Assembly: GCA_009773355.1 (NCBI GenBank)
Contig: WRPG01000012.1
Location: 56,810-120,809, forward strand
Direction of reading: 5' to 3'
Length of the DNA: 64,000 nt
From: Limisphaerales bacterium
GTDB taxonomy: Bacteria; Verrucomicrobiota; Verrucomicrobiia; Limisphaerales; SXTU01
Under the pieces are notes generated by a model, which was not told where the DNA came from, searched no databases, and was given only the letters and a program-made list of their open reading frames with translations. The position numbers were made by a program, and so were the translations under genes. The first letter of the stretch is position 1, and each line of letters starts with the position of its first letter. This document shows, one piece after another, positions 7,101 to 41,688 of the stretch.

Positions 7101-7154
7101 GGGACACGGAGAGATTGAACCGCCTCGCGAGGTTTGCAATCCGCGACTGGCCGC

Positions 7155-22259: not shown

Positions 22260-22338
22260 GCGGGCGTCACAAAGATTTTTCGCCTTTGCCGGAGTTCCGT
22301 TGAATCTTACCCCAAGCATCCCGTCGCACTTTGGAGAC

Positions 22339-22860: not shown

Positions 22861-22865
22861 GCTTC

Positions 22866-23573: not shown

Positions 23574-23992
23574 GGTTCAACCCGGCTCCGCCCGCTTCCC
23601 TGCGCCGGGGAACCGCCCTGCTCGAAGTCCTCCTCGCCCTGGCGCTGTTCGTCGTTGCCGCCGCCATCGTCACCAGCGGCATGAGCGCCTCGACGGACAA
23701 TCTCGACCGGCAACGGCGCAACACCCACGCGGCCAACCTCGCCGCCACCGTGCTCGCGGAAATCCAACTCGGCATCCGCTCCACCGCCGAGGCGGGCGAG
23801 CAGCCGTTCGCCGCGCCGTTTGACAAGTGGACGGCCGAACTCGTCGTGACCCCGACCGAGACCGAAGCCGGCGAGGCCAGCGGCCTGCTGCGCGTGGAAG
23901 TCATCATCCGGCACCAGGAATCTGCGCTCGTGCGCCGCCTCGCGCAGGTCATCCGCGTGCCGGACACTTCGGCCCGCACCGCCGCCTTCTGA
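23570..23992 (+). CDS. gspI: Minor pseudopilin GspI
   Basis: The 140-residue product has a leader ending LRRG, cut before TALLEVLLALALFVVAAAIV, with Glu at +5. The following RNTHAANLAATVLAEIQLG matches the GspI helix containing the conserved Ala-x-x-Leu-Ala pattern. Its length is normal for GspI. GspI forms the tip complex of the pseudopilus with GspJ and GspK, whose genes follow directly; the gap to gspJ is only 2 bp. Confidence 0.85.
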   Translation: MRFNPAPPASLRRGTALLEVLLALALFVVAAAIVTSGMSASTDNLDRQRRNTHAANLAATVLAEIQLGIRSTAEAGEQPFAAPFDKWTAELVVTPTETEAGEASGLLRVEVIIRHQESALVRRLAQVIRVPDTSARTAAF

Positions 23993-23994
23993 CC

Positions 23995-24858
23995 ATGCGC
24001 CTGCCCTGCCAACCTGGTAGCAGCCGACGTGAGGAGGCTCTGACTTCCCATTCCGCATTCCGCGTTCCGCGTTCCGCGTTTGAACAGAGCCTCCTCACGT
24101 CGGCTGCTACGAGGACAGTTCGTCATTCCTCCTGCGCCTTCACCCTCCTCGAAGTCGTCCTCGCCATCATCATCGCCATCGCGATTCTCGTTGTCGCGCT
24201 CGCCTTCCATCACCAAGCCACGACCCTGCGCGCCAATCTCCTCGATGAGTCCGAGCGGCTCGCCGCCGTGCGCCAAATCATGGACCGCCTCGCCGCCGAC
24301 CTGCGCGTCGCGCCCGTCCACAACCACGTTGGCTTCACCGGCGACTCCAACTCGCTGCGGTTCGTCACCACGCGCCTGCCGCTGGCCGCCGCCGGCTTCG
24401 ACTCCGACCTGCGCCGCGTGACCTATCGCGCCCTTTTCTCCGGCGACACCACGAACCTCACCATCAGCGGCCTCACGCGCCTCGACGAGCCGGCGGTGGA
24501 GCTGATTCCGTCGCCGCTCGCGCCCGCCACCGCGCCCGCGTCGGAGCCGGTGGGCGACGCCGCCGAGGAACTGGCCGCCGGCGTCACCAACACCACCGCG
24601 TCCGTGACCGGAACCGCCGAGCCGCTGACGCAGGCGATTCGTTTTCTCAACTTCCGTTTCTGGGACGGCACCGCCTGGACCGATTCGTGGAGCGGCGTGG
24701 CCCCGCCGCCCGGCGTGGAAATCAGCCTCGGCTTCGAGCCGCTGCCGGCCGAGACCACGCCCGACCTGTATCCCGGCGAAGTCTTCCGCCGCGTCATCTT
24801 CCTCCCCGCCGGCCAGCCCAAGCCGGCGGAAATGAACTTGGTGGCCAGCCGACCATGA
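23995..24858 (+). CDS. gspJ: Minor pseudopilin GspJ with palindromic-repeat-derived leader
   Basis: The 287-residue product has the prepilin core AFTLLEVVLAIIIAIAILVV with Glu at +5, then RQIMDRLAADLRVA and FLNFRFWDGTAWTDSW, typical of GspJ. The leader is far too long: residues about 8-39 (GSSRREEALT to LLTSAATR) are encoded by a palindromic element whose perfect 24-bp arms lie at 24017-24040 and 24087-24110. Without it, a leader of about 15-20 residues would remain. If translation really starts at 23995, the prepilin peptidase must cope with a leader near 48 residues. No closer start codon gives a convincing alternative. Confidence 0.85.
   Translation: MRLPCQPGSSRREEALTSHSAFRVPRSAFEQSLLTSAATRTVRHSSCAFTLLEVVLAIIIAIAILVVALAFHHQATTLRANLLDESERLAAVRQIMDRLAADLRVAPVHNHVGFTGDSNSLRFVTTRLPLAAAGFDSDLRRVTYRALFSGDTTNLTISGLTRLDEPAVELIPSPLAPATAPASEPVGDAAEELAAGVTNTTASVTGTAEPLTQAIRFLNFRFWDGTAWTDSWSGVAPPPGVEISLGFEPLPAETTPDLYPGEVFRRVIFLPAGQPKPAEMNLVASRP
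24017..24110. repeat. Palindromic element within the gspJ leader region
   Basis: Arms of 24 bp (24017-24040 and 24087-24110) are exact reverse complements, for example GTAGCAGCCGACGTGAGGAG against its mirror CTCCTCACGTCGGCTGCTAC. The 46-base spacer contains short TTCCGCA/GTTCCGC repeats. The whole element is read through in frame as part of gspJ. Confidence 0.9.
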
Positions 24859-26606
24859 GATTGCCACACGCAACAGAGTGCAGAGGCGCGCTGGCGGGCG
24901 GCGGGGCTGGGGTGTCGGTTGAAGTCCCAAATCCCAAGCTCCAAATCCCAAAGAAGCTCCAAGCTCCAAGCTCCAACGCACCATCGCACGACGTTACCGC
25001 GCCGGGTAAAACTGCTCCCGCGCGCCGTTTGGAATTTGGAGCTTGGAATTTGGAACCTGGAGCTTCTCGGCCCCACGCCTTCGTCCTCGTCGCCGTCCTC
25101 GTCATCGTGATGCTGCTTTCGATGCTCGTCATCAGCCTGCTGTTCCGTTTCCAGGCGGAGGACACCGCGGCGAGCGCGAGCCTCGGCAGCGAGCAGGCTT
25201 GGGCGGCGGCGATGAGCGGCGTCGAGGAGGCGTTGCGCGTCGCGGCCACCGCCGCCTCCGGTGCGACGGACTGGCAGGACAATCCCGGCGCGTTCCGCGA
25301 GCGGCTGGTGTTCGAGGACGGCGGCGAGAACTGGTATTTCAGCGTGTTCTCGCCCGGCGGCGGCGATGCGCTCAACGAGGTGCGGCACGGCCTGACCGAC
25401 GAGGCCTCGAAGCTCAACGTCAATTACTCCTCCTCCGCCAATCTGGAGAAGCTCCCACGCGTTTCGCCGACGATGGCCGCCGCGCTCATTGACTTCCTCG
25501 ACGCCGACGACATCCCGGAGTCGGAGGGTGCGGAGCAGGAGTATTACAGCGCGCTGGCGCGGCCCTACACCATTCGCAACGGCCCGCTGGCCTCGCTCGA
25601 CGAACTGCTGCTCGTGCGCGGCTTCACGGCGGAGATTCTGCACGGCGCGGCGGCGATTCCCGCGAACGCGACGAACGCCGAGCCTCCCACCGCGACCGCC
25701 AACGCCCGGCCCGCGCGCGGCCTTAGCCAGTTCCTCACCGTCGCGTCCTACGACCTGAACCCCGATGGCGACGGCTGGGACCGCACGAACTTGAACGACC
25801 CCGCTGCCCCGCTGCCCGCCACCGAGTTGCTGCCCCCGGCAGTCACCAACTTCATCTTCGCGCTGCAAACCAACGGCGTCACCCTCAGCCACCCCGCCGA
25901 CCTGTTGGAAGCCACGTTGCCCGTGAAGGACGCTAAGGGCGTCGAGACCGAACTCACCTCCGGCGTGGGCAAGGCCGAGCTGGCCGCCGTGCTCGAACTC
26001 TTCACCGCCACCGACGATTACTTCACCGACGGCCTCATCAACGTGAACACCGCCAGCGCCACCGTGCTCGCGACACTGCCCGGCGTGGACGAGGCGCTGG
26101 CCGAGACCATCGTCTCCGCTCGCGGCGCGCTCGGGCCGGACCGCAAGACCACCATCGCGTGGCTTTATCAGGAGGGCGTGCTCAACGCGGCGAAGTTCAA
26201 GGCGCTCGCGCCGCTGCTCACGGCGCGCAGCGCGCAGTTCACGTTTCAAGTCATCGGCTACGGGCTGCCCTCGGGCCGCTTCCGCGTGCTGGAGGCGGGC
26301 ATTGATGTCACCGGTGGCGAACGTCGCGTGACCTACCTGCGCGACGTGACGCGGCGCGGCTTGCCGTTCACGATTGCAAGTGAAGGCGATGGGCAGATGA
26401 CGAAACACGAAAGTCCGAACACCAAAGCTCAACGAAGCTCCAAGCTCCAAGCTCCAAATCCCAAAGAAGCTCCAAGTGCCAAGCTCCAAATGCCAAGGCG
26501 CGCGTCCATCCATCCGCGCGCGAATTGGGATTTGGAGCTTGGAACTTCTTTGGAACTTGGAGCTTGGGTTTTGGAGCTTTCTTCTCCGGAGGTGAACCGT
26601 GGCTGA
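24855..26606 (+). CDS. gspK: Minor pseudopilin GspK with repeat-derived N- and C-terminal extensions
   Basis: The 583-residue product overlaps gspJ by 4 bp. Its prepilin helix, AFVLVAVLVIVMLLSMLVIS, begins near residue 76 instead of near 10-20. The globular part has ALRVAATAASGATDW, GLTDEASKLNVNYSSS, PLASLDELLLVRGF and the helix-hairpin region INVNTASATVLATLPGVDE, all GspK-like. Residues about 22-72 come from an AAGCTCCAAGCTCC-type inverted repeat (24921-25066), and the last ~65 residues from a second copy (26413-26580). Both stay in frame. Normal GspK has about 320-350 residues, so the mature part is also enlarged. Confidence 0.88.
   Translation: MRLPHATECRGALAGGGAGVSVEVPNPKLQIPKKLQAPSSNAPSHDVTAPGKTAPARRLEFGAWNLEPGASRPHAFVLVAVLVIVMLLSMLVISLLFRFQAEDTAASASLGSEQAWAAAMSGVEEALRVAATAASGATDWQDNPGAFRERLVFEDGGENWYFSVFSPGGGDALNEVRHGLTDEASKLNVNYSSSANLEKLPRVSPTMAAALIDFLDADDIPESEGAEQEYYSALARPYTIRNGPLASLDELLLVRGFTAEILHGAAAIPANATNAEPPTATANARPARGLSQFLTVASYDLNPDGDGWDRTNLNDPAAPLPATELLPPAVTNFIFALQTNGVTLSHPADLLEATLPVKDAKGVETELTSGVGKAELAAVLELFTATDDYFTDGLINVNTASATVLATLPGVDEALAETIVSARGALGPDRKTTIAWLYQEGVLNAAKFKALAPLLTARSAQFTFQVIGYGLPSGRFRVLEAGIDVTGGERRVTYLRDVTRRGLPFTIASEGDGQMTKHESPNTKAQRSSKLQAPNPKEAPSAKLQMPRRASIHPRANWDLELGTSLELGAWVLELSSPEVNRG
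24921..25066. repeat. AAGCTCCAA-type inverted repeat within the gspK leader region
   Basis: The left arm (about 24921-24977) is built of copies of CAAGCTCCAAATCCCAAAG and CCAAGCTCCAAG; the right arm (about 25028-25066) has the reverse, such as TTGGAATTTGGAGCTTGG. The pairing is imperfect because both arms are internally repetitive. Confidence 0.85.
26413..26580. repeat. AAGCTCCAA-type inverted repeat within the gspK 3' end
   Basis: Left arm about 26413-26497 (GAAGCTCCAAGCTCCAAGC and AAATCCCAAAGAAGCTCC), right arm about 26525-26580 (GGATTTGGAGCTTGGAAC, GGAACTTGGAGCTTGGG). It is the same family as the one at 24921 and adds the C-terminal tail of GspK. The ribosome-binding site of the next gene (GGAGG at 26588) follows 8 bp later. 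Confidence 0.85.
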
Positions 26607-28238
26607 CCGCGACGCCCTGCCCGCCTTCCCGCTGAAGAAGGCCTCGTCCGCCCGCGCGAAACTGCCCGCGCAGGCGACCGCGCTCGACTTCGACAGCCGC
26701 TCGCTGCGCGTCGTGCAGCCCGGCCTCAGCCGCGTGGCCGTCGCGCCGCTGAACCTGCCGGCGGACGCGGACCGCGCTGACGCCGCCATGCTCGGAGCCG
26801 CGCTCGCGAAGGCGCTGGAGCAGCTCAAGCTCAAGCCCGGCCCCGTCGTCATGGGCCTGCCGCGCGCGCAGGTCGTGCTCAAGACGCTGCTGCTCCCGGT
26901 CATCGCGGATGTGAGCGAGCTGGCATCCGTCGTGCATCTGCAAGTCGGCCGCGACCTGCCCTTCCGCGTGGCGGACGCGGTGGTTGATTTCCAAGTCCTG
27001 CGCCAAATCACCCCGCCCGCTCCCAAGCCCGACGCCAACGCCAAGCCCGGCGCGGAAGCTCCCGCCACGCCGCCGCCCAAGCTCGAAGTGCTCGTCGCCG
27101 TCGCGCGGCGCGAGGTGGTTGATTTCTACCAGCGCGTCGCCACGGCGGCGGGCGTGAAGCTCGTCGCGCTCGGGCTGCTGCCCAACGCGGGCGCGCGGTG
27201 CGTCGAGGCGTGCCAGGTGGCGGAGCGCGGGCAGGCTTACGCGCTCGTATCGCTGCGGCCGGATGAGGTCGGCATTGATGTCGCCTGCGACCAGGCCGTG
27301 CCGTTTAGCCGCGGCGCGGCGCTCGGAGTCCCGCCTTCAGGCGGCAAAACCTCCCGACCGCCTGAAGGCGGTTCGTCAACGCCGCGACCATTGAGGTCGT
27401 TCGCAGCCTGCACAGTTACGGCGGGCAGGGCGCGGCGGGTTCGCCCGCAAAAATTCTCGTCACCGGCGCGACCGGCCATGAGGCCGCGTTCGTCAGCGCG
27501 CTCGCATCCCGAATGGGCGCGGCCGTTGAGCTGCTCGATTCCACCGCGCTCAAGCTGCCCGCCGATACGCACACGGAAGCGGCGGGCGCGACGTCGGCGA
27601 TTGGTCTCGCGCTCGGCTACGCGGACGCGGGCGGGCTGCCGTTCGACTTCCTCAACCCGAAACGCCCCGCCGTCCCGCGCGACCTGCGGCGCATCAAGAT
27701 TCTCGCCAGCCTTGCGGCGACAGCCGCGCTCTTCATGCTCGTCGCCGGCATTTGCACCTGGCTCGTGGGCAAGCGGCAGGCCGTGCTCGACGCCGTGACC
27801 GCCGAGGCCGTCGCCGCCGAGAAGAACCGGCCCGCGTATCGCAAGGTGATTTCGCAGGCCGCCGTGGTGAACGAGTGGGTCGGCGGCGAGCGCGACTGGC
27901 TGCTGCATTACGCGCACCTCACCGCCGTGCTGCCGCGCAGCGAGGAGATTTTTCTCACGTCCTTCGCCGTGAGCGGGCCGGGCGCGCTGCGGCTCGGCGT
28001 GCGCGCCAAGAGCGGCGAGATTCTGGCGAAGGTCGAGAAGCAGCTCCGCGCCGCCGGCTACGAGGTCAAGCCGCTCGCCATCACGCCGGGCACGGACAAG
28101 AACGGTTACGAATTCCAGTCCACCGTCGAGCTGGCGGTGCCGCACAAGCTGAAGGTTGACCTTTCCAAGGTGAGGCCACCCGCCCGCCCGGCGGATGACG
28201 CGTCGCTCGACCCGCCGCGACGGAAAGGAGGCGGATGA
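26599..28238 (+). pseudogene. gspL: GspL-like assembly protein, frameshifted by a 47-bp palindromic insertion
   Basis: Translation starts at a GTG at 26599, with GGAGG at 26588-26592. Up to 27324 the frame encodes the PilM/GspL actin-like cytoplasmic domain (VVMGLPRAQVVLKTLLLP, then VALGLLPNAGARCVEA). At 27325-27371 sits a 47-bp palindromic element; after it the protein resumes in another frame with FVNAATIEVVRSLHSYGG, a membrane segment LAATAALFMLVAGICTWLVG and the periplasmic PilN/GspL part, ending at 28238. As written, the first frame continues wrongly to 27798, and the second could start at the ATG at 27513. It is either a broken gene or one split into PilM-like and PilN-like halves. An element insertion is more likely than a sequencing error. 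Confidence 0.85.
27325..27371. repeat. 47-bp palindromic insertion in gspL
   Basis: Arms CCGCCTTCAGGCGG (27331-27344) and CCGCCTGAAGGCGG (27358-27371) are perfect reverse complements. The flanking coding frames join without loss if these 47 bases are removed (…GCGCTC then TTCGTCAACGCC…), which identifies the exact insertion. Confidence 0.85.
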
Positions 28239-29275
28239 ACGCGCGCGAGAAACTCCTCGCCAGCCTTGTGCTGGGCGGCGCGTGCCTCTTCGGCGGCGCG
28301 CTGGGCATCCGCGCGTTCATCATGAAGCCGCTGACGGACCTCGACAAACGCATCGTCGCCGCGCGCGAGCGGCTCGGAAAAATCCAGGCCGAGCGCCGCA
28401 GCTTCTTCACCGCCGAGGACCGGTTGAAGGCGCTGGGCCGGCTGACGTTCGCCGACTCGGTGGACGAGGCCAGCGCGCGTTCCGGCGAGGCGCTGACCAA
28501 GCAGATTCTTCAGGCCGGCCTCGACGAGGGGAATTTCACCCGCCTGCCGCTGGGTCCGCGCAAGCTGCGGGGTGCGAGTGAAATCGGCTGGAACGTCCAG
28601 GGCGACGGCGCGCTCGCGACCGTCGTCAATCTGCTGTTCATCCTCGAACAGTCGCCGCACCTGCAGCGGCTCGACGGCCTCGTGCTTTCGCAGGCGGAGA
28701 AGCCCGGCGAGGTGCGCGTGCGCTTCCGCTGCCTGACGCTCGTGTTCGACCCCGCGCCCGACGTGAAGCGCGAGGCGCTGCTGGCGAAGGCCAGCTTGAA
28801 GTCAGACGAGCGCCGGGTCTTCGATGGCATCGTGTCGCGCGACCTGCTGCGGCCTTACATCAAGCGCCCGCCGCCCCCGCCCGTGGTGGCGAAGGCCGGT
28901 GTCGGTTCCGCGACGGCCACGCCCGCCACGCCGCCCGCGCCGCCGGGACCGGAGACGTTCCGCGTCGTGTCGCTCTCCGAATGGCAGGGGCAGCCGGAGG
29001 CCCATGTGCGCGACCTGACCGCGCAGAAGACTGTCCGCTACAAGCCCGGCGATGCGCTCGCGGGCGGCACCATCGCGCTGGTGGACTACCGCGCGATGCC
29101 GCTGCCCGGCACGAGCGGCCTGCAATCCTTCAGCCGTGTCATCGTGCGCGTGAAGGGCGACTATTTCGCCATCGAGCGCGGCCAGACGCTGGCCGACTTG
29201 CGGAAACTGGAGCTGGCCCAGCTTCCGCCCGAGCTGGTAAAGCCTGTCGTTGAAGCCCCGCGCGCCACGCCGTAA
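28235..29275 (+). CDS. GspM-like protein with C-terminal PilP/GspC-like domain
   Basis: The 346-residue product overlaps the gspL stop by 4 bp and has AAAGGAGG just upstream. A single N-terminal membrane segment (LLASLVLGGACLFGGALGI) is followed by a coiled stretch (RIVAARERLGKIQAERRSF) and a PilO/GspM-like domain to about residue 185. After a Pro-rich linker (KRPPPPPVV), residues about 240-335 (FRVVSLSEWQGQPEAHVRD, then YKPGDALAGGTI) resemble the homology region of PilP and GspC, which contacts secretin N-domains. No separate gspC is present, so this protein may combine GspM and GspC roles. The domain assignment rests on pattern similarity only. Confidence 0.7.
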   Translation: MNAREKLLASLVLGGACLFGGALGIRAFIMKPLTDLDKRIVAARERLGKIQAERRSFFTAEDRLKALGRLTFADSVDEASARSGEALTKQILQAGLDEGNFTRLPLGPRKLRGASEIGWNVQGDGALATVVNLLFILEQSPHLQRLDGLVLSQAEKPGEVRVRFRCLTLVFDPAPDVKREALLAKASLKSDERRVFDGIVSRDLLRPYIKRPPPPPVVAKAGVGSATATPATPPAPPGPETFRVVSLSEWQGQPEAHVRDLTAQKTVRYKPGDALAGGTIALVDYRAMPLPGTSGLQSFSRVIVRVKGDYFAIERGQTLADLRKLELAQLPPELVKPVVEAPRATP

Positions 29276-29290: not shown

Positions 29291-32200
29291 ATGAACCGAA
29301 CGCATCCCACGCTCCTCGCCCTGGCGCTCGCCGGTGGCACGTTCACCCTCGCGGCGCAGGTCGCGCCCAAGGCCGCGTCCGCTACAAACGCGCCCGCGAA
29401 GTCCGTCACCATCACGCCCGGCACCGCCGCGCCCGCGTCCGCGACGACCGCCGCCGCCGCGCGCAACATCCGCTTCCAATTCGACGGCATCCCTTACGCC
29501 GACGTGATTGAGCGGTTCGCGCAGATGGCGAACAAGCCGCTCCTGGCCGGCACGAAGCCCGAGGGCACGCTCACCTACAACGACCCCAACGCCTACACCT
29601 ACGTCGAGGCGCTCGACACGCTCAACGTCATCCTCGCGATGAAGGGCGTCATGCTCGTCGAGAACGCCAACTATCTTCAGCTCGTGCCGTTCAAGGAGCT
29701 GCCCTCCACGCCGCTGAAACTCCTGCGCGGCACCGCCCCCGCCGGCGACGTCCGGCCCGGCGAGGTCGTCACCGCCGTGCTCGACGCGAAGAACGTGGAC
29801 TCGAAGGAAATCACCGAGTCGCTCACCTCCATGCTGTCCAGCGCTGGCTCGATGGCGGTCCTCCCGCGCGGGCGCGGCATCATCATCACGGACCGGCTGG
29901 CGAACATTCAGCGCATCAAAACCCTGCTCGCCACGATAGACATCGAGGCCCCGGCCGAGCGGATGATGAAAACCTTCGCGCTGCAAAACACGTCGGGCGC
30001 GATTGTCGCCGACCTGCTCAACCGCACCTTTGGCCTCGCCACCGCGCCGCGCCGGCAGGAGTTCAATCCCACCACCAAGACCATGGTCGCCGTCCCGCCC
30101 GACCCGAACGAATACATCACCGCCGTCTATGACGACGCCTCGCGCACGATGGTCCTCTTCGGCCCGCGCGAGCGCATCGCGCTGGCGGAGGAGCTGATTG
30201 CGAAGTTCGAGCAGCGCGAAGGCCCGGCGGGCGACGTGCGCATCTACCAGTTGCAGAGCACCAAGGCCGAGGAGCTCGCCATGATTATCCGTCAGGCCAT
30301 CCCCGGCGTGGCCGAGCCGAAGGAAACCGGTTCCGCCGCCGCCACGAAGGCCCGCGTCATCGCGGACTCGAAGGACAACCGCCTCATCGTCGCCTCGCCG
30401 GTCGCGGCGCAGTTGGAGCAGATTGACCTGCTCATCAGCCGCGTGGACAAGGGCACCACCGGGAATTTCAGCAACACCAACAACATCGCGCTCCGCACGC
30501 AGACCGTGATGCTCACGAAAGTCTTCCGCCCGCGCGCGACCGAGCCGAAGGATTTTGCCGCCATCCTCACGCAGGCGCTCACGCGGCGCGAGCCGGGCGC
30601 GCGCACGGGCAGCTCCACGGCGAGCGTCACATTCGACGCCGCCAGCAAGAGCGTCGTCATCACCGGCTCGCCCGGCGACTTGCAGACGGCCACGGAGATT
30701 CTCACGCAGTTGGAGACGGGCACCTCACAGCCGCAGGCGCTCCAGACGCGGTTCATCGAGGTCGGCACGGCGGCGGACGCGAAGCGCCTGCTGCCGCTGG
30801 TCGAGGAGCTTTACCGCAACCAGATGAGCGGCGCGGGGTCGCTGGAATCCGGCCCGCACGCGAAGCTGATGAGCGACGACAACGGCCGGCTCATCGTGAC
30901 CGCGAGCGAGCCGCACCTGCTCCGCATCGAGGAGCTGGTGAAGCAACTGCGCGGCAAGCACGGCGTCGTGCTCAACCGCCAGCTCTCCATCATCGCGCTC
31001 AAGAACACCAAGCTGGACACGGTTTTCGCCGGCTTCGAGAAGCTGCTCGCCGACCGCATGGCCGACCGCCGTTACGAAGGCCAGCCCAAGCCGTCCGTCG
31101 TCGCTGACAACGCGAACAACCGGATGCTTGTGACCGCGACGCCGGAGCAGCTCACGGAGATTGAGCAGCTCGTGAAGGTCGTGGACCTCGCGCCGGCCAC
31201 GCAGCGCCGCGAGATGGTCGTGCTGCCCGTGCGCGCCAAGACGCCGACCGAAATCATCACGCTCGCCACGCAGCTCCTGGCGCAGATGGGCGGCCCCGGC
31301 ACGGACCCGCAGATGGAGCCGAAGCTCATCCCCGACGCCAGCGGCAAGCAAATTATCGTGCTGGCCGCGCAGAAGGATTTGAAGCGCGTGCAGGATTTGG
31401 TCACGCAGCTCGACACCGCCACGACGCAAAATCTGGCCCGCCAGTTCCGCTCCGTGGACTTGCACGCGCGCACCGCGACCGAGCTGACGCCGCTGGTCAC
31501 GCAGCTTTACCAGGAGCAGCTCAAAGGGCAGAGCGAGCCGCCCGGCGGCGCGGCCACCGTCCTCGCCGATGCGAAGAACAACCGCATCATGGTCAGCGGC
31601 GCGGACGCGGAAATCACCCGCGTCGAGGCCATCATCCGGCAGCTCGACCCCGCCGGTCGCAAGCCCGCCCGCGACGAGACGCGCGTCATCCGCCTGCGCT
31701 CGGCGCTCGCCGCCGAGATTTCCGGCCTCGTCGAGAAGAGCCTTAACGCGCAGGCCCAGACCGTGAAGGTGCTCGTGGACGCGCGCAGCAACAGCCTGGT
31801 CCTCAGCGGCGAGCCGGACGCCGTCGAGGCCGCGTCGAAGGTCATCCAGCAGCTCGACACGCCCGGCGACGTGCAGCCGCGCGAGATGCGGGTGATGGAG
31901 TTGAAGCAGGGCGACGCCACCGCCATCGCCGCGCTCGCGCTGCCGCTCGTGACCGAGCTGCTCAAGAGCCAGCGCGGCCCGGAGTATTCGCCCTCGGTCA
32001 AGATTGTCGCCGACGCCGCCTCGAACCGCCTCATCCTCAGCGGCCCGCGCAACGAACTGCTTGCCGTGAACACCATCGTCGAGCAGCTCGACCAGGCTCC
32101 CGAGGGCGCGGGCGGCGCGCGGGTCTTCAAACTCAACAACGCCGACGCGATCAAGGTGGTCGGGATCGTCTCGAACGCGATGGTGCGCTTCGACGCGCGC

Positions 32201-35200
32201 AACCAGCCCATCCGCCGCGTCACCGTCTCCGCCGACCGCGAGTCGAACAGCATCGTGGTGGCCGGCACGCGCGCGGACTTGAAGGACGCGGAGAACATCA
32301 TCCAGCGCCTCGACAACGAGGGCATTGACCCCTCGAACCTGGACAAGCCCAAAGGCATGAGGCTCATCGAGGTGCGCGGCGACGCCGACGCGCTGGCCGC
32401 GCTCGCGACCAAAATCTTCGTCGCGCAGAGCGGCGGACGGGCAGTGACGAACCTCGTGAGCATCACGCCGAACGGGAAGCGCCTCATCGTCCTCGCGCCG
32501 GAACCGATGCTCGTGCAAATCGAGGCGCTCGTCGCCTCGCTCGACAGCAAGCCGGACGAGCTTCAGCGCGAGCTGCATCCCATCGTGCTGAAGAACGCGT
32601 CGGCCACTGAGCTGCTGCCGAAGGTCACGGCGATTTACTCCGAGCAGTCCCTCGGCAAGACGCAGAAGCCCGCGACGATTTACGCCGATGCGAGCGGCAC
32701 GCGGCTGAACGTCTTCGGCACGAAGCAGCAGGCGGAGGCGATTCAGCAGATTGCCGACACGCTCGCCGGTGGCGCACCCGCGACGCGCGAGACGAAGGTC
32801 ATTGACCTCGGCAAGCTCGCCGAGGCGAAGCGCGTGATGGCGCTCGCGCTCCAGCTCTACAAGGACCAGTTCGCCGCGAACCCGCAGCTCGGCGCGGCGG
32901 ACGCGCAGATGGTCAGCGACGGCGTCTCGGGCCGCGTCATCGTCAGCGCACGCGCGGACCAGATGAAGGCCATCGAAGACATCTTCACCCGCCTCCAGCC
33001 AACCGCTGCCGCCGCGACCGCGCGTGAGACGCGGATGATTGAAGTCGGAACGGCGAACGACGTGGCGCGGCTGCTGCCCATCGTGCAGAAGCTCTACACC
33101 GAGCAGTGGAAGGACCGCCCCGAGACCGACCCGGCGGACGCGCAAATCGTCGCGGACCCGCAGGGCGGGCGCGTCATCGTCACGGGCCGGCCCGAGCACG
33201 TGAAGGAGATTGAAGGCATCTTGCAAAAGCTCGGCACGGCCAAGGCCAAACCGCAGGCGCGCGAAACGCGGCTCTTCGATCTCACCACCGCGAGCGCCAC
33301 CGAGCTGGCCGTGACGGTGAAGCTGCTTTACGGAGAGTCGGCCAAGGCCCGCTTCGGCAACCAATCGCCCGACACGCTCATCATGGCGGACACCAGCGCG
33401 AACCGGCTCATCGCCATCGGCGAGGTCACGGAGCTGGAGGCCGTCGCCGACTTGGTGAAGAAGCTGGACACCACCGCCGGCCAGAGCGCGACCGCCCGTG
33501 TCTTCAAAATCAAGTCCGCCGACCCGGCGAAGGTCGCCGAGGTGCTGACCACGGCGCTCGTGCGCTTCGACGCGCTGGGTCGCCCCCAGAAGCGCGTGAG
33601 TGTTTCGGTGGACGCGAAGACCCGCACGCTCATCGTCACTGGCGACGCGAAGGAGTTGTCCGCCGTGCCCGCCATCATCGAGCAGCTCGACCAGTCGCTT
33701 GGCGAGCAGCCGGCACGGAAGATTCAGGTGGTGCAGCTCAACTCCGCGACGCCCAACACGCTGCTTTCGCAGGCGCGCAAGCTCTACGACGACCAAATCA
33801 AGACGCAGCCCGAGCTGGCCGTGGCCGAGCTGCTCGTGATGGACGACGCCAGCGGCAGCCAGCTCATCCTCGCGGGCAGCGACGCGCAGTTGAAGCTGTT
33901 CAGCCAGATTCTCACGGACTTGCAGAAGCTCCAGCCCACGCCGGGCGAGCGCGTCACGAAGGCGTTCGACCTCGGCCCCGCTGACGAAGTCGCGCGCCTC
34001 GTGCCGCTCGTGCGCTCGTTCTACGAGGAGAAGTGGCGCACGCGGCCGCTCTCGGACCCGGCGGACGCGACGTTCCTGCCCGACACGCGCAACGGCCGCA
34101 TGATTGTCACCGCGCGCACGAACCACCTTGTGGAGATTGAGGCGTTGCTCGGACAGTTGCGCGGGGCGGCGGCGACTGAGCCGCGCGCGACGCGGTTCTT
34201 CGACCTCACCAGCAGCGACGCCGGCACGCTCGCCGGGACGTTGCGCCCGCTGTATCTGGAGCAGGCCCGGCTGCGGCCCGGCTCTCCCGCACGCGACACG
34301 TTGATTCTGGCGGAGACCAATTCCAACCGCCTCATCGTGACGGGCACGACGAACGAGCTGGCGGTGGTCGAGCACCTGGTGCGCGAGCTGGACAAGGCCA
34401 GCCCGCAGAGCGCCAACGCGCGCATCTTCAAGCTCAAGGCCGCCGACCCCGCGCAGGTCACGGAGATTCTCACCAACGCCTTCGTGATGATGGACCGTTT
34501 TGGGCGTCCGACCAAACGCATCAGCGTGGTGGTGGACGCCAAGAACCGCAGCCTCATCGTCACCGGCGAGGCGAAGGACCTGCACGCCGCCGCGCAGGTG
34601 GTCGAGCAGCTCGACACAGCCACGGGCACCAACACGGTGCGTTCGATGCGGGTCTTCGCGCTCAAGGGCCGCCGCGCCACGGAGACCGCGCCGAAGATTC
34701 GGCAGGTCTTCGAGGAGCGCGCGCGCAGCCTGCCCGACGTTGGCTCCGCCGGCGCGCTGGTCATCGAGGACATTCCCGGCAACCAGCTCATTTTCGTGGG
34801 CACCGAGGCGCAGCTCGCGCTGATGCAGGAGACCGCCGACGTGATGGACAAGGCCGGCACGACGTTGGGCCGCGAGGTCCGCGTGTTCCCGCTGGAGCGC
34901 AATTCCGCCGCCGCCGTGGTCGTGATGCTCAACCGCCTCTTCCCGCGCCAGACCGGCACAACCGACCGCGAGGACCGCCTGCTCATCAGCGCGGGCGGCG
35001 ACGACAACACGCTCATCGTGGACGCCACGCGCACGCAGTTGGAGCAAATCGAGCAGCTCCTCCGCGTGATGGACGCCGCGCCCGCCGGCGACAAGACGAC
35101 CTTCCACGCCGTGCATCTCACGAAGGGCAAGGCGGAGGAAGTTGCGACCGCCGTGACCGCGTCGTTCACCGCCAAGCTGGGCCGGGGCAAGCTCCCGCGC

Positions 35201-38200
35201 ACCACCGTCACGCCCGTCACCGGCGCGAACACGCTGCTCATCAACGGCCCGAACGGCGAGGTCGAGGACGTGCTGAAAATCATCCAGGCGCTCGACGTGG
35301 AGATGAAGGGCGACGAAATCGAGATTCGCATCTACAAGCTGGAGAACGGCACGGCGAAGGAAGTCTCCGTCATCATCGAACAGCTTTTGCAGGGCGTCTC
35401 GCGCACGCGCGTCCGCGCCGCCGCCATCAACGTGGCCGTGGACCCGCGCGCGAACACGCTCATCATCTCCGGCACGCCCGCGCACTTCCGCGTCGTGGAG
35501 AAGGTGCTGCCCACGCTCGACAAGGCTCCCGAGCGTTCCGACCGCGATGTGCAGTTCGTCTGGCTCAAGAAGGCGAAAGCCTTCGACGTGAGCACCAAGC
35601 TCGATGCGCTTTTCGCCGAGCGGCCCAAGGGCGAGCAGCCGCTCATCGAGCCGGACGTGATGAACAACTCGCTCACGGTCATCGCCAAGCGCGCCGACCT
35701 CGCGCAAATCCAGGACCTCGTGTCGCGCCTCGACGAGCAGAGCAAGGACAACAGCATCCAAGTCCGCCTGCGCCCGCTGGACCGCGTCGTCGCCGAGCAG
35801 ATGGCGAAGATGCTGCAAAGCATTTACCCGCAGATGTCGCGCGGCACCGTGCGCGTGGTTGAGAAGCTCGACCCGCTCAAGCCCGCCACGACCAACGCGC
35901 CGGCTGCCAGCCCGGCGACGAACGCTCCGGCCAACCCGCCCGCCGCGCAGGCGCAAGCCACGGTCGTGGACACCAACGCAGTTCCCGAAGTCGTCATCGC
36001 CGTGGACAAGAACGCGAACTCGCTGCTGCTCTCCGGCCCCGCGTCCGAGCTGGACAATGTTGAGCGCATCATCGGCGACCTCTCACTGAACTTTTACAGC
36101 AACGAGGCCGAGTTCCGCCTGTTCCCGCTCAAGGACGCCGACCCCATCGTCGTCGCGCGCACGCTCAACGAGCTGCTCCGCATGCCGCCCGTCACCGTCG
36201 CGCCACAGCGGCCCGGCGAGCCGGTTCGCACCGTCGAGCAGCCGCCGCGCATCACCGTCGTGGCCGAGCAGCGCACGCGCAGCGTCGTGGTCCGCGCGCG
36301 GCCGACGGACTTCGCGCTGATGGAGTCGCTCATCAAGCAGCTCGACGGCGCGGGCCAGGCCGCCCAGCTCGACTTCCGCAGCGTGCCGCTCACCAACGCG
36401 CCGCCGGAGAAGGTGCTCCCGCTCGTGCAGCAGATGGTCACGCAACTCAACCTCATCCGCCCCGGCGAGCCGCTCACGGTCGTCATTGACCCGCGTTCGC
36501 GCGGGCTGCTCGTCGTCGCGCGCGAGGCCGTCATCGTGCAGGTGGAGAAGATGATTCAGTCGCTCGACAAGCCCGCGCCCTACATTGAGGCGGAGGTGAT
36601 GGTTTTCGCGTTGAAGAAGGCGAACGCGGCGGCGCTCGCGCTCGTGTTGCAGAACATGATTCGCCCCGGCCCACAGGGCACGCAGAGTTTGGAAGCGCGC
36701 GAGCTGCAGGAGCAAATCCGCCGCCTCCGTGTGCTCGGCGACAACGGCGAGGCCGTCACTCTGGACCTCACCAAGCCCATCAAAATTTCCGCCGACGGTG
36801 CGGGTGGCGGCAACCGTCTCGTGCTCACCTCGACGCCTGACAACTTGAAGGCGCTCGCCGCCGTGGTCGAGCTGATGGACACGCCGCAGGTCGTCGAGGG
36901 CGTCAACGTCCGCATCATCAAGCTCCAGCACGCGGACGCCGCGTCGGTGCTGACCACGGTGCAGAGCATCTTCACGCAGGGCCGCACGCTCGCGACCGGC
37001 CCCGGCGGCCCCGGCGCGCAGCCCGAGGGCTTGACCGGCAAGGCGCTCGTCAACCCCGTCGGCATCGGCGTGGACGCGCGCTCGAACACACTGATTCTCA
37101 GCGGGCAGATGGAGTCCATCGAGCTGGCCTCGAAGCTCATCGAGGACTTGGACAAGCAGCTCGACCATCCCGTGACGGAGGTGAAGTTGTTCCGGCTCAA
37201 GCACGCGTCGGCCACGCGGCTCGTCGCGATGCTGCAAAGCGTCTTCGCGGAAGGCCCGCCCGTGCCCGGCACCGAGGGCTTGAAGACGCAAGTGACTCGC
37301 CTCCGCACGCTGAAGGAGGGCGCTAACACGCCGCGCACGAGCGAGAACGCGAAGTCCCGCGCCGCGCTGACGATTCAGGCCGACGACCTCTCGAACATCC
37401 TCATCATCGCCGCCCGCAGCGACATGCTGCCGCTCATCGCGGACGTGATTGACCAGCTCGACATCCCGTCCGCGTCGGGCCTGGAGACCGTCCGCATCTT
37501 CCCGCTCGCGCACGCCGAGCCGGCGGCGGTGCAAAAAGTTCTGGCCGACCTCTACGCTGGCCAGCGCGCCAACGCCGTCCGCAACGAGGACAAGCCCGTC
37601 ATCACGCTGGACGAGCGCACCGGCGCGCTCATCGTCGCGGGCAACGCGAAGAGCTTCGCCATCGTCGAGGGCCTGCTGAAGCAGCTCGACCAGAAGCTGC
37701 CGTTCGACCTGCGCGACATCCGCATCCTGCCGCTGGAGCACGCCGACGCGAACGCCGTGGCCGGCACGCTGCAGAAGCTCATGGACGCCCGGCTTACGCA
37801 GCGCGTGACGCTCAACAAGGGCCAGTCCGACGCGCTCAAGGTCATCATCCTCGCCGACTCGCGCAGCAACGCGCTGCTCGTGGGCGGCGGGCGCGACGGC
37901 TTCGAGATGGTCGAGGCGCTCGCCAAGCAGCTCGACACGGCGGGCGCGGCCTTGAGCGGGCGCATCCGGCTGATTCCGCTTCAGTTCGCCGACGCGCGAC
38001 TCGTGGGCGCGACGTTGACGACCTTGTTCGAGCAGCGCTACGCCGCCGCGCGCACGACCGACGTGCAGCGGAACAAGCCGGTGATTCTCCCCGACCCGCG
38101 CAGCAACAGCCTGCTCATCACGGCGAACCAGGAGGACAACCGGACGATTGACGAGCTGCTCCAGAAGCTCGACACGCGCATGGACAATCCGTCGCTCCAG

Positions 38201-41131
38201 CTCACCGTCCTGCCGCTCAAGCACAACGACGCCGCGCGCGTGGCCGGGATGATTGAGAGCATCTTCGCCGCGCGCCGGGCCGCGCAGACGCTGCCGGGCC
38301 AGCCGCCGCTGCCCAGCACGCAAATCAAGCTGGAATTCGACGCGCTCAACAACTCACTCGTCGTCTCCGCGAGCAAGGAGAACCTCGAGTTGATTCAGGA
38401 CCTGCTCAAGAAGCTCGACGCCGAGCCGGTCATCGCCGGCGGCGTGCTAGAGGTGTTCACGTTGCAATTCGCTGACGCCGCGCGCGTCGGGGCGATGCTG
38501 AGTTCGCTCGTGCAGCAGGGGCTTTACCGGCCCGGCCAGTTGCGCGGCGCACCGGCTGCGAGCGCGGCGGACAAGCTCGCCGTGACCGTGGACCCGCGCA
38601 GCAACTCGCTCTTCGTCAGCGCCAGCCCGGAGACGATGGCCGTGGTGCGCGAGGTCATCAAACGCATGGACACGCAGGAGCAGGCCGTGACCGGCGACGT
38701 GCGGCTCTTCCAGCTCAAGCACGCGCGCGCCAGCTCGCTCGCGACCACGCTGACGCAGTTCTTCACTGCTAAAGAGGCGGCGGACGCGTTGACCGTGAAC
38801 GCCAACCAGCGCCGCGTGAAGGCAACGGTCATCGCCGACGACCGCGTCAACACGATTCTCGTCACCGGCGGGAAGGAGGCCTTCGACTTCGTCGAGCGCA
38901 TCCTGCCGCAGCTCGATGGCGAGGGGACGTTCAGCAAGCTGAACTTCCGCGTGTTCACGCTGACGAAGGCCACGGCGCAGAAGCTCCAGGCCACGCTTCA
39001 GCCCATCTTCGCCAACCGGCCGCCGCGTGTGCGGGGCGAGCCGAACGACCCCATCACCATCATCGCCGACGCGTGGGTGAACGCGCTGCTGGTCGGCGCG
39101 AATGTCGAGGACATGACCGCGGTCGAGGCGCTTATCAAGCAGCTCGACGCCGAGCCGGCTCCGAACGGCCTGGCCATCCACGTCTTCCCGCTGGCCAAGG
39201 CGGACGTGCGGAAGGTCGCGCTCACCGTGCAGGGCCTCTTCCGCGACGGGCCTCCCGGCCAGCCGGGGCAGCAGACGCCGGTGCAAGTCACCGCCGACGA
39301 ACGCATCAACGCGCTGGTCGTCTCCTGCGGCGAGGTGGATGCCCGGCGCATCGCCGAGCTGGTGAAGAGGCTCGACACCGAGCAGGTCGCACGCGTGGCC
39401 GAGATCAAGGTCTTCCCGCTGAAGAACGCGCGGGCCGAGACGCTCTCGACCATTTTGAACGCCGCGTTGAACACCAAGCCCGCGCCGCTCACCGACCAGC
39501 AGAACCCGAATGCGCAGTCGGTGCTCCAGTTCATCACGCGCACGCTGGAAGGCCGCGACCTCATCACGGCGGCGTTGAAGGAATCCGTTCTCATCACGCC
39601 TGACCCGCGCATGAACTCGCTCATCGTCAGCGGCCCGGTGGATTACATGGGCTTGCTGGAGCAGATCATCACGCGGCTCGACGCCAGCTCCCCACAGGAG
39701 GCGAAGATCAAGGTGTTCACCCTCAAGAACGCCTCGGCCCGCCAGATGGCCGACATCCTCACGCAGATGTTCCGCATGACCGCGACGGCGACGACTGCCA
39801 GCCAGCGCACCATCCAATACACGCTGGTCCGCCCCGGCGGCACGAACGACGCCGCCAGCGCCACGCTTGGCACGGCCGAACAGGCCGCGCTGACTGTGAC
39901 CGTGGACCCACGCACGAACAGCCTGCTCGTGGGCGGCACGGACCATTACGTGACGATGGTCGAGCAGATCATCGAGTCGCTGGACTCCACCACGGCCAAC
40001 GACCGCCGCACCGAGATCGTCCGCCTCAAGAACACCCAGGCGGGGGATGTGGCGGGGGCCGTGCGCTCGTTCCTGGACCAGGAGCGCCAGCGCGTGACGC
40101 AGGTGCTCGGCGCGGATGCCGTCGGCACCGCGCAGCAGATGCTTGAGCGCGAGGTGGCCGTGGTGGGCGAGACGAACAGCAACACGCTGCTGCTCTCGGC
40201 CAGCCCGCGCTACTTCACGCAGGTCCAGCAGCTCATCACCGAATTGGACAAGTCCCAGCCGCAGGTGATGATCCAGGTCGTGCTGGCCGAGGTGGCGCTG
40301 ACCGACGGGCGAGACGTGGGGCTGGAGTGGAACCTCACGGGCGGGCCGGTCTATTCCAGCGGCGTGAACCTGGGCGTTGCCAACCTGGCCAAGAACGGCT
40401 TCACCGCCGCCCTGACCGGCGGCGACACGAGCTTCATCCTCAAGGCGCTGAAAGAGCACTCGAAGCTGGAGGTCCTCAGCCGCCCACAGATCGTCACGGC
40501 GGACAACAAGCCGGCGACGATCAATGTCGGCCAGCGCGTGCCGCTCATCACCGACAGCCGCGTGACCGAACGCGGCGACACCATCAACTCCTTCCGCTAC
40601 GAGGATATCGGTGTGAACCTGACCGTGACGCCGAAGATCAGCCTCGATGGCTTTGTGAAGCTGGAGCTGGGCACGACCAACTCGTCGCTCGCCAGCTCGG
40701 ACGTGAAGATCAACGCGTCCGCCACCGTGCCCGTCATCAACCAGCGCCGCGCCAACACGACGGTGAGCGTCCAGAACGGCCAGACCATCATCATCGGCGG
40801 CCTCATCGGCACGCAGGAGGACCGGCGCGAGCGCAAGGTGCCGTTCTTCGGCGACATCCCGTATCTCGGCGCGGCTTTCCGCAGCACCAAGGTCACGAAG
40901 GAGAAACGCGAGCTGCTCATCTTCCTCACCCCGACCATCATGGCGAACAACCAGACGCCCGTGCCGTTGAACGACCCGCTCGACGCCACCCGCGAGCAAC
41001 TGGACCGCTCGCGGCTCAAGGACGAGCTTAAACGCAACGACTTCAACCAGCCGCTGCTGGATTCCCTCTTCCCGCCGCCGATCACCCCGCCGCCCGTCAA
41101 TCCGGGCGGGCGGAAACCCACTAAATCTTGA
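29291..41131 (+). CDS. gspD: Giant type II secretion secretin (GspD-like) with about 43 N1-type domains
   Basis: The single 3946-residue frame has a signal peptide (PTLLALALAGGTFTLAAQ) and an N0-like domain at about 57-135 (VIERFAQMANKPLL, YVEALDTLNVIL). Next come about 43 copies of an N1-like module of roughly 75-95 residues, each closing with a strand-helix pattern like NSLIVSGPxxxxxxVEQLIxxLD. The C-terminal secretin domain spans about 3655-3900: EVLSRPQIVTADNKPATINV, VPFFGDIPYLGAAFR near 3850, and ELLIFLTPTIM. A Pro-rich tail ends it. Normal GspD has N0-N3 and about 650-750 residues. The outer-membrane pore should therefore carry a hugely extended periplasmic part. Modules 15-18 and 19-22 look like a duplicated four-module block. 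No stop codon or palindromic element interrupts 11.8 kb. Confidence 0.93.
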   Translation: MNRTHPTLLALALAGGTFTLAAQVAPKAASATNAPAKSVTITPGTAAPASATTAAAARNIRFQFDGIPYADVIERFAQMANKPLLAGTKPEGTLTYNDPNAYTYVEALDTLNVILAMKGVMLVENANYLQLVPFKELPSTPLKLLRGTAPAGDVRPGEVVTAVLDAKNVDSKEITESLTSMLSSAGSMAVLPRGRGIIITDRLANIQRIKTLLATIDIEAPAERMMKTFALQNTSGAIVADLLNRTFGLATAPRRQEFNPTTKTMVAVPPDPNEYITAVYDDASRTMVLFGPRERIALAEELIAKFEQREGPAGDVRIYQLQSTKAEELAMIIRQAIPGVAEPKETGSAAATKARVIADSKDNRLIVASPVAAQLEQIDLLISRVDKGTTGNFSNTNNIALRTQTVMLTKVFRPRATEPKDFAAILTQALTRREPGARTGSSTASVTFDAASKSVVITGSPGDLQTATEILTQLETGTSQPQALQTRFIEVGTAADAKRLLPLVEELYRNQMSGAGSLESGPHAKLMSDDNGRLIVTASEPHLLRIEELVKQLRGKHGVVLNRQLSIIALKNTKLDTVFAGFEKLLADRMADRRYEGQPKPSVVADNANNRMLVTATPEQLTEIEQLVKVVDLAPATQRREMVVLPVRAKTPTEIITLATQLLAQMGGPGTDPQMEPKLIPDASGKQIIVLAAQKDLKRVQDLVTQLDTATTQNLARQFRSVDLHARTATELTPLVTQLYQEQLKGQSEPPGGAATVLADAKNNRIMVSGADAEITRVEAIIRQLDPAGRKPARDETRVIRLRSALAAEISGLVEKSLNAQAQTVKVLVDARSNSLVLSGEPDAVEAASKVIQQLDTPGDVQPREMRVMELKQGDATAIAALALPLVTELLKSQRGPEYSPSVKIVADAASNRLILSGPRNELLAVNTIVEQLDQAPEGAGGARVFKLNNADAIKVVGIVSNAMVRFDARNQPIRRVTVSADRESNSIVVAGTRADLKDAENIIQRLDNEGIDPSNLDKPKGMRLIEVRGDADALAALATKIFVAQSGGRAVTNLVSITPNGKRLIVLAPEPMLVQIEALVASLDSKPDELQRELHPIVLKNASATELLPKVTAIYSEQSLGKTQKPATIYADASGTRLNVFGTKQQAEAIQQIADTLAGGAPATRETKVIDLGKLAEAKRVMALALQLYKDQFAANPQLGAADAQMVSDGVSGRVIVSARADQMKAIEDIFTRLQPTAAAATARETRMIEVGTANDVARLLPIVQKLYTEQWKDRPETDPADAQIVADPQGGRVIVTGRPEHVKEIEGILQKLGTAKAKPQARETRLFDLTTASATELAVTVKLLYGESAKARFGNQSPDTLIMADTSANRLIAIGEVTELEAVADLVKKLDTTAGQSATARVFKIKSADPAKVAEVLTTALVRFDALGRPQKRVSVSVDAKTRTLIVTGDAKELSAVPAIIEQLDQSLGEQPARKIQVVQLNSATPNTLLSQARKLYDDQIKTQPELAVAELLVMDDASGSQLILAGSDAQLKLFSQILTDLQKLQPTPGERVTKAFDLGPADEVARLVPLVRSFYEEKWRTRPLSDPADATFLPDTRNGRMIVTARTNHLVEIEALLGQLRGAAATEPRATRFFDLTSSDAGTLAGTLRPLYLEQARLRPGSPARDTLILAETNSNRLIVTGTTNELAVVEHLVRELDKASPQSANARIFKLKAADPAQVTEILTNAFVMMDRFGRPTKRISVVVDAKNRSLIVTGEAKDLHAAAQVVEQLDTATGTNTVRSMRVFALKGRRATETAPKIRQVFEERARSLPDVGSAGALVIEDIPGNQLIFVGTEAQLALMQETADVMDKAGTTLGREVRVFPLERNSAAAVVVMLNRLFPRQTGTTDREDRLLISAGGDDNTLIVDATRTQLEQIEQLLRVMDAAPAGDKTTFHAVHLTKGKAEEVATAVTASFTAKLGRGKLPRTTVTPVTGANTLLINGPNGEVEDVLKIIQALDVEMKGDEIEIRIYKLENGTAKEVSVIIEQLLQGVSRTRVRAAAINVAVDPRANTLIISGTPAHFRVVEKVLPTLDKAPERSDRDVQFVWLKKAKAFDVSTKLDALFAERPKGEQPLIEPDVMNNSLTVIAKRADLAQIQDLVSRLDEQSKDNSIQVRLRPLDRVVAEQMAKMLQSIYPQMSRGTVRVVEKLDPLKPATTNAPAASPATNAPANPPAAQAQATVVDTNAVPEVVIAVDKNANSLLLSGPASELDNVERIIGDLSLNFYSNEAEFRLFPLKDADPIVVARTLNELLRMPPVTVAPQRPGEPVRTVEQPPRITVVAEQRTRSVVVRARPTDFALMESLIKQLDGAGQAAQLDFRSVPLTNAPPEKVLPLVQQMVTQLNLIRPGEPLTVVIDPRSRGLLVVAREAVIVQVEKMIQSLDKPAPYIEAEVMVFALKKANAAALALVLQNMIRPGPQGTQSLEARELQEQIRRLRVLGDNGEAVTLDLTKPIKISADGAGGGNRLVLTSTPDNLKALAAVVELMDTPQVVEGVNVRIIKLQHADAASVLTTVQSIFTQGRTLATGPGGPGAQPEGLTGKALVNPVGIGVDARSNTLILSGQMESIELASKLIEDLDKQLDHPVTEVKLFRLKHASATRLVAMLQSVFAEGPPVPGTEGLKTQVTRLRTLKEGANTPRTSENAKSRAALTIQADDLSNILIIAARSDMLPLIADVIDQLDIPSASGLETVRIFPLAHAEPAAVQKVLADLYAGQRANAVRNEDKPVITLDERTGALIVAGNAKSFAIVEGLLKQLDQKLPFDLRDIRILPLEHADANAVAGTLQKLMDARLTQRVTLNKGQSDALKVIILADSRSNALLVGGGRDGFEMVEALAKQLDTAGAALSGRIRLIPLQFADARLVGATLTTLFEQRYAAARTTDVQRNKPVILPDPRSNSLLITANQEDNRTIDELLQKLDTRMDNPSLQLTVLPLKHNDAARVAGMIESIFAARRAAQTLPGQPPLPSTQIKLEFDALNNSLVVSASKENLELIQDLLKKLDAEPVIAGGVLEVFTLQFADAARVGAMLSSLVQQGLYRPGQLRGAPAASAADKLAVTVDPRSNSLFVSASPETMAVVREVIKRMDTQEQAVTGDVRLFQLKHARASSLATTLTQFFTAKEAADALTVNANQRRVKATVIADDRVNTILVTGGKEAFDFVERILPQLDGEGTFSKLNFRVFTLTKATAQKLQATLQPIFANRPPRVRGEPNDPITIIADAWVNALLVGANVEDMTAVEALIKQLDAEPAPNGLAIHVFPLAKADVRKVALTVQGLFRDGPPGQPGQQTPVQVTADERINALVVSCGEVDARRIAELVKRLDTEQVARVAEIKVFPLKNARAETLSTILNAALNTKPAPLTDQQNPNAQSVLQFITRTLEGRDLITAALKESVLITPDPRMNSLIVSGPVDYMGLLEQIITRLDASSPQEAKIKVFTLKNASARQMADILTQMFRMTATATTASQRTIQYTLVRPGGTNDAASATLGTAEQAALTVTVDPRTNSLLVGGTDHYVTMVEQIIESLDSTTANDRRTEIVRLKNTQAGDVAGAVRSFLDQERQRVTQVLGADAVGTAQQMLEREVAVVGETNSNTLLLSASPRYFTQVQQLITELDKSQPQVMIQVVLAEVALTDGRDVGLEWNLTGGPVYSSGVNLGVANLAKNGFTAALTGGDTSFILKALKEHSKLEVLSRPQIVTADNKPATINVGQRVPLITDSRVTERGDTINSFRYEDIGVNLTVTPKISLDGFVKLELGTTNSSLASSDVKINASATVPVINQRRANTTVSVQNGQTIIIGGLIGTQEDRRERKVPFFGDIPYLGAAFRSTKVTKEKRELLIFLTPTIMANNQTPVPLNDPLDATREQLDRSRLKDELKRNDFNQPLLDSLFPPPITPPPVNPGGRKPTKS

Positions 41132-41142
41132 ACCATCACCCG

Positions 41143-41688
41143 ATGATCCAATCGAGGCTGGCGGCCCCGCTGCCGTGTTGGGCGTTGGCCGGCCGGTTCT
41201 TCGCCCTGGCGCTGGTGGCTGGGCTGACGCTGTTGAGCTTGAACGGCTGCGTCTCCAGCGACGGCGGCGCCCTGTCCTGGGGCGGCGGCTCCATTCAGGA
41301 ACTGCATCTTCTGGTGCTGCCCGTGACCTTGAAGTCCAGCCAGGCGGGCGCGACCGACGGTTTCGCCGTGCGGGTTTTCGCCAGCGACCGCCGCCGGTCG
41401 AAGGGCATTCCCATCCGCGGCGGCACGCTGGAGATTTTGGGCTATGAAGGCAGCCCCTACGAAACCGATCCCCGGACCATGACCCCGGCTCAAGTCTGGT
41501 CCTATCCGGCGGCGAGCCTGCCGCCCTTTGCCATCGCCACTTCGCTCGGCACGGGCTACGACCTGACCCTGCCCTGGCAGGGGCCGCGCCCGACCAACAG
41601 CCGCCTGACGCTCGTGGTCCGCCACACGCCAGCCTCGGGGTCCGCGCTGCTCAGTGCTCCGAGCGTCATTCCCAACGGCCTGAAATAG
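41143..41688 (+). CDS. Lipoprotein directly after the secretin gene
   Basis: I choose the ATG at 41143; a TTG at 41128 would overlap the secretin stop by 4 bp and only lengthen the leader. The 181-residue product has a lipoprotein signal, LALVAGLTLLSLNGC, with the lipidated Cys in LNGCVSS. The remainder (TLKSSQAGATDGFAVRVFAS, GGTLEILGYEG, SLGTGYDLTLPWQGP) looks like a compact beta sandwich and matches no family I can name. Its place at the end of the T2SS operon suggests a pilotin-like helper for secretin insertion, but this is inference from position. Confidence 0.7.
   Translation: MIQSRLAAPLPCWALAGRFFALALVAGLTLLSLNGCVSSDGGALSWGGGSIQELHLLVLPVTLKSSQAGATDGFAVRVFASDRRRSKGIPIRGGTLEILGYEGSPYETDPRTMTPAQVWSYPAASLPPFAIATSLGTGYDLTLPWQGPRPTNSRLTLVVRHTPASGSALLSAPSVIPNGLK

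Follow-up and report, generated by a model that had tools for sequence, protein, structure and literature searches.

A giant gspD gene and its domains

We analyzed a 64,000-nucleotide stretch (hereafter the window) of the genome of a Limisphaerales bacterium of the Verrucomicrobiota (assembly GCA_009773355.1, contig WRPG01000012.1). The window carries a type II secretion system (T2SS) gene cluster whose secretin gene, gspD, encodes a protein of 3946 amino acids (aa) with 43 modules, whereas ordinary GspD proteins have about 620-660 residues. The features of this gene, in window positions, are as follows:

29291..41131, + strand: giant gspD (T2SS secretin), 3946 aa; ATG start, open reading frame (ORF) without interruption
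29462..29704, + strand: N0 domain, about residues 58-138; profile A3 against GspD 5wq7_A, E 2.6e-18
29726..29950, + strand: divergent N1-type module, the first of the array, about residues 146-220; covered by the alignment to GspD, not recovered with the self-trained profile
29966..40252, + strand: 42 further N1-type modules, residues 226-3654; Pfam and self-trained profile
33029..34618, + strand: four-module super-repeat (module 14 resembling 18, 15 resembling 19, 16 resembling 20); module-to-module resemblance, near the site of extra modules in longer relatives
40445..40942, + strand: secretin pore domain, residues 3719-3884; PF00263 E 1.4e-49, 6hcg_A E 1.3e-44

An initial annotation, made from the letters of the sequence, had described a single uninterrupted 3946-codon gene in a T2SS operon, with an N0-like domain, about 43 N1-like modules and a standard secretin pore. 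This description was borne out: the ORF is intact, a T2SS gene cluster conserved in relatives surrounds it, and the profile count gives N0, 43 N1-type modules (42 found by profile and one divergent) and the pore. The Pfam family Secretin_N matched 37 stretches (1113 bits), far above the three to four N-domains named as the contrary outcome, and the pore family PF00263 scored 168.4 bits against a cut-off of 27.5. The GspD equivalog TIGR02517 scored 1131 bits (cut-off 351.35), a value inflated by its 22 matched stretches. The protein also has a secretin pore in common with the Amuc_1098-family PilQ of Verrucomicrobiota, but we rejected membership in that type IV pilus secretin family, as its NF042912 score was 59.2 against a cut-off of 750.

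The 42 modules found by the self-trained profile, built from modules of this protein, are contiguous. In 120 family proteins this profile detected 5178 modules at an independent E-value (iE) of ≤0.05 and none in shuffled versions, where matches numbered 3 at iE 1 and 18 at iE 10; a second module profile, used on 240 proteins, found 10658 modules in the real sequences and one in the shuffled ones. The linkers between modules have a median of 8 residues, the ordinary secretin linker length, with longer ones after modules 2 and 10 (21 and 12 residues), and the N-terminus is hydrophobic by inspection of the translation. The stretch of N0 and the divergent module was the part that, as a profile, matched the solved GspD 5wq7_A.

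By the features tested, the giant protein is a T2SS secretin with an N-domain array expanded more than tenfold. It shares N0, N1-type modules, pore, linker length and T2SS genes with GspD proteins of solved structure (5wq7, 5zdh, 6hcg and others). According to the accessible parts of the literature, ordinary GspD consists of N0 and three further N-domains, N1-N3 (PMC3169554), and the number of N-domains varies among secretins (PMC8563730).

A family of giant secretins in two phyla

The identical protein occurs on three database contigs; the longest has 612,496 bases, as compared with 120,809 for the window's own contig. The records that carry the relatives P0140 and P0218 measure 3.9 Mb and 4.5 Mb. 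The concern that long reads might reveal a collapsed repeat is answered by the other assemblies with the identical protein: the array is not a collapsed repeat. Protein searches scored 352 relatives with the window protein as query, 298 with a Phycisphaerales member as query and 173 in a third search, the best 120 being listed each time; the lengths admitted ran from 0.55 to 1.75 times that of the query, and short relatives are therefore invisible there. Listed relatives span 2881-5312 aa and, where organism names are given, come from Verrucomicrobia, Limisphaerales, Pedosphaera, Phycisphaerales and other Planctomycetes. Some bear the database names type II secretion system protein D or secretin N-terminal domain-containing protein.

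Exactly 42 profile modules were present in 62 of the 120 listed Verrucomicrobiota-type relatives (range 31-55), and P0034 (31 modules), P0032 (36) and P0030 (39) are without the usual N-terminal stretch. The Phycisphaerales queries listed a further 176 proteins absent from the first list; these have 30-54 modules, and 43 of them have 50. The comparison with GspD of related genomes that the initial annotation had proposed thus yielded, as judged from the sequences, a conserved family of giant secretins in two phyla, Verrucomicrobiota and Planctomycetota.

Module order is conserved as well. Module i of the window protein and module i of P0028, P0033 and P0067 are reciprocal best matches for 42, 41 and 41 of the 42 modules, respectively, and five longer or shorter Verrucomicrobiota-type proteins have 39-41 of 42 reciprocal best modules, with shifts. 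The figure for the Planctomycetota protein P0121 is 11 of 42. N-terminal modules of the Planctomycetota proteins had no one-to-one match to window modules, and the last eleven or so modules of five Planctomycetota-type proteins follow the order of window modules 29-42, with few misfits. Because this C-terminal module order and the gene cluster are shared, the common ancestor of both phyla's proteins probably carried at least about eleven modules already. In the longer members, most extra modules fall in the interval from module 14 to module 23, which in the window protein holds the four-module super-repeat; they probably arose by tandem duplication of module blocks.

Every module is under purifying selection about as strong as that on the pore. 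Ratios of nonsynonymous to synonymous rates (dN/dS) against five relatives were 0.095, 0.167, 0.132, 0.200 and 0.205, in agreement with the selection that had earlier been deduced from the lack of stops. By proportions (pN/pS), no module exceeded 0.64, and the pore gave 0.16-0.36 against five relatives. Mean identity of 62 aligned proteins to the window protein was 0.83 for N0, 0.61-0.87 for the modules (0.75-0.80 for those adjoining N0) and 0.72 for the pore.

To map the distribution of these secretins, genomes of the order were surveyed with the last module plus the pore as query. Thirty-one of 116 genomes matched at E 1.4e-94 or better, and frames of 2928-5155 aa were found in 25 of the 31; by contig-length arithmetic, five of the other six run off contig ends, and the G093 frame (2418 aa) is short, not at a contig end and unexplained. 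Two further categories were considered and discarded: graded intermediates, since a gap separates the giants from the next secretins, which have 373-512 aa and E-values no better than 3.0e-55, and genuine short members, since the short frames are mostly cut or broken. A class survey matched 14 of 236 genomes at E 1e-55, all within the Limisphaerales, and in a draw of 288 genomes from the phylum the window's own genome was the sole match. The next tier in a species-genome scan, of which the best 80 of 422 relatives were kept, is mostly Planctomycetota, several with at least 34 modules; one such locus, L050, is titled Vicinamibacteraceae.

A quick tree of pore sequences was made from 48 of 80 loci together with the window's own and four of the ten additional proteins; P0079, P0041, P0138, P0179, P0218 and P0190, in which the pore motif was not found, were left out. 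The 29 multi-module rows used group together (SH-aLRT 90, open fork), with starred sets of two and eight Planctomycetota rows and nineteen Verrucomicrobiota rows, and the long branches flagged by the tree program lie outside this group. The 'Vicinamibacteraceae' L050 and 'Klebsiella' L014 fall inside these starred sets. Giant-bearing contigs titled Proteobacteria, Akkermansia muciniphila or Klebsiella pneumoniae (L010, L012, L014, L015 and L016) look like mislabelled metagenome-assembled genomes (MAGs).

Some loci have their modules in overlapping broken frames (L036, 26 + 17 modules; L042, three frames), and L056, with 11 modules, is open at the contig end. The Phycisphaerae contig L049 has a frame of at least 7 modules at 1-1785 that ends in a stop, and a second frame at 2399-7606 with its own signal-like start, 15 modules and a pore. 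Two frames of genome G000 were also observed. On contig C132, a 639-aa frame (L090, 1866-3782) matches Secretin_N and contains a segment that looks like N0 on inspection; as the pore search of this genome gave no match on C132, it may be a pore-less secretin relative. On contig C157, which had no PF00263 match, a frame of 2911 aa (L089, 2-6736) has one Secretin_N match and, by inspection, repeated N0-like and export-protein-like segments.

What the module array may build

The gene directly upstream of gspD bears on how the array is anchored. In the predicted model of its product there is a GspM/PilO ferredoxin-like domain, followed by a C-terminal domain that by fold comparison appears to be like PilP and the homology region (HR) of GspC; a PDB sequence search with the HR domain returned nothing relevant, so that fold comparison alone was informative. 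On the strength of this model, the protein is likely the inner-membrane partner of N0. It resembles, in having both predicted folds in one protein, the PilO-PilP fusions reported in type IV pili in the accessible part of PMC3169554, but differs from them in lying among T2SS genes, beside a giant secretin.

We consider it fairly probable that the protein is a T2SS secretin of N0, 43 modules and pore in which the modules stack as rings into one long conduit. The domain content, the gene cluster, the conserved module number and order, the uniform short linkers, the selection and the GspM/HR-like neighbour all argue for this stacked tube. The stack would bridge the periplasm, most likely at locally deep places, with N0 docked on the HR-like domain of the inner-membrane platform at one end and the pore embedded in the outer membrane at the other. 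Assuming 12-15 subunits, as in other secretins, and a rise of 2.5-4 nm per ring, the complex would have a mass of about 5-6 MDa and the stack a length of about 110-170 nm. More tentatively, and with rather less than even confidence, we suggest that a conduit of >100 nm and about 6 MDa, with module number as a genetically encoded ruler for bridging a deep periplasm, evolved once and was kept in two phyla.

The six-ring PilQ of Thermus thermophilus is the largest stack we met in the accessible literature, where it is given as about 35 nm long in a periplasm of about 70 nm, and its authors tie the extra rings to the wide periplasm (PMC5745081, PMC4463427). It shares extra N rings with the giant protein but differs in having 757 residues and in serving a type IV pilus and DNA uptake. 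Secretins are envelope machines that have been studied in depth. With about 30-55 modules, as against six rings in the longest described stack we met, the giant family makes the link between ring number and periplasm width testable by module counting. No open-access paper on the size or architecture of such secretins was found among the titles and abstract openings of the top matches; a planctomycete paper notes giant genes, and the word secretin is absent from the accessible part of its text (PMC12288469).

Several observations weigh against a stacked tube. Stacked rings are our preferred interpretation; no ring or tube was observed. A predicted model of five modules had a mean pLDDT of 69 and a pTM of 0.54, and long stretches fitted GspD and PilQ poorly (Foldseek rmsd mostly 20-43 Å); we set the predicted multi-module arrangement aside as unreliable. 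Hinges could lie at the longer linkers that follow modules 2 and 10, and no cultured carrier occurs among the protein lists or the titles of giant-bearing loci, where the organism names given are those of MAGs. A true TonB must span from the inner to the outer membrane. The median length of TonB_C proteins was 318 aa in 10 giant-bearing genomes (21 matches) and 305 aa in 10 members of the order without a giant in the pore searches (25 matches; p 0.25). Because these lengths are alike, a generally wide periplasm is unlikely, and the uniformly expanded periplasm that the initial annotation had entertained is not supported; local enlargement is possible. In 20 genomes of the order, G000 among them, TamB matched in none of the 10 with a giant and in 3 of the other 10, too few for a length comparison.

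Planctopirus limnophila and Gemmata belong to another planctomycete class than Phycisphaerales. Periplasmic enlargements are documented for both in the accessible part of PMC5394234; in P. limnophila, according to the same source, crateriform structures join the membranes where these are close and are missing at invaginations, which also speaks against a conduit across deep periplasm. Four Verrucomicrobia, among them the subdivision 3 strain Ellin514, have been described as having a ribosome-free outer compartment (PMC2647929, accessible part), which may be read as periplasm. The giant family offers a structural handle on this compartment and on the enlarged periplasm of Planctomycetes; what is new is a conserved family in two phyla with a likely N0 partner in the adjoining gene. 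If real, the tube would be directly visible by tomography even in uncultured cells, and to our knowledge would rank among the largest bacterial channels.

A rather unlikely alternative is that the last few modules alone form rings and the rest is a chain of beads, a tether of variable reach between the pore and the inner-membrane platform. The predicted module arrangement is not fixed, the TonB lengths do not point to a wide periplasm, and the modules shared in order with Planctomycetota are the pore-proximal ones. Such a tether should, however, allow linkers and module number to drift, whereas most linkers have ordinary length and module order is kept, and N0 and its adjoining modules are at least as conserved as the pore. 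Still less probable is an array whose modules mainly dock exoproteins or peptidoglycan, with length as capacity and not reach: each module position is conserved separately, as distinct docking sites would be, and modules 26, 29, 31, 40 and 41 are long (93-103 residues), but in Pfam and in fold comparison the modules match plain secretin N-domains. That the chain is a precursor, cut after export to leave a secretin of normal size, was an option in the initial annotation that we regard as very improbable because the modules are as constrained as the pore; the linkers are also short and uniform, and the array in two frames on L049, the second with a signal-like start, is the observation in its favor. 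An assembly artefact or a repeat expansion without function is scarcely credible: the draft genome that contains the window comes in 162 contigs, repeats are prone to misassembly and some relatives have broken frames, but the exact protein on three contigs, the relatives on megabase-sized records and the constant module number already contradict it.

The surrounding T2SS genes

The remaining features of the cluster, all on the + strand, are:

18773..20437, + strand: gspE; T2SSE, E 2.2e-134
21057..22259, + strand: gspF; T2SSF, E 1.9e-54
22192..22860, + strand: gspG pseudopilin (ORF bounds; true start later); T2SSG, E 1e-20
22683..23573, + strand: gspH-like pseudopilin (ORF bounds; true start later); prepilin-like start by inspection, conserved
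23570..23992, + strand: gspI-like pseudopilin; N_methyl E 0.093 only, position and conservation
23827..24858, + strand: gspJ (ORF bounds; true start probably later); T2SSJ (E 7.7e-4) and PRK08808 (E 7.6e-5) match weakly, short of their curated cut-offs; conserved
24687..26606, + strand: gspK (ORF bounds; true start probably later); PF21687 and PF03934 over cut-off
26599..28238, + strand: gspL, split between frames 26599-27798 (PilM_2, E 2.6e-8) and 27513-28238
28235..29275, + strand: GspM-like protein with putative C-terminal PilP/GspC-HR-like domain, directly upstream of giant gspD
41128..41688, + strand: predicted lipoprotein overlapping the gspD stop; tblastn matches in relatives, loose lipobox

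Matches to gspE, gspF, gspG and gspK exceed the family cut-offs, and the remaining T2SS genes were assigned by position. The cluster is conserved in relatives and common to the Planctomycetota-type loci. Between gspE and gspF sits a 196-aa ORF (20441-21031) with several Cys; it matched no family above cut-off, and tblastn found no counterpart in the 17 pieces of relatives. Relatives of the downstream lipoprotein were matched by tblastn in 34 of 48 loci (L009-L056), 24 of these with a loose lipobox motif; its position, conservation and lipobox make it a possible pilotin candidate. Both parts of gspL were matched in 15 of 17 relatives. An inverted repeat (27331-27371) lies near the gspL frame break, with an exact match at that single place in the genome, and in the relative L092 both gspL parts are in one frame by coordinates.
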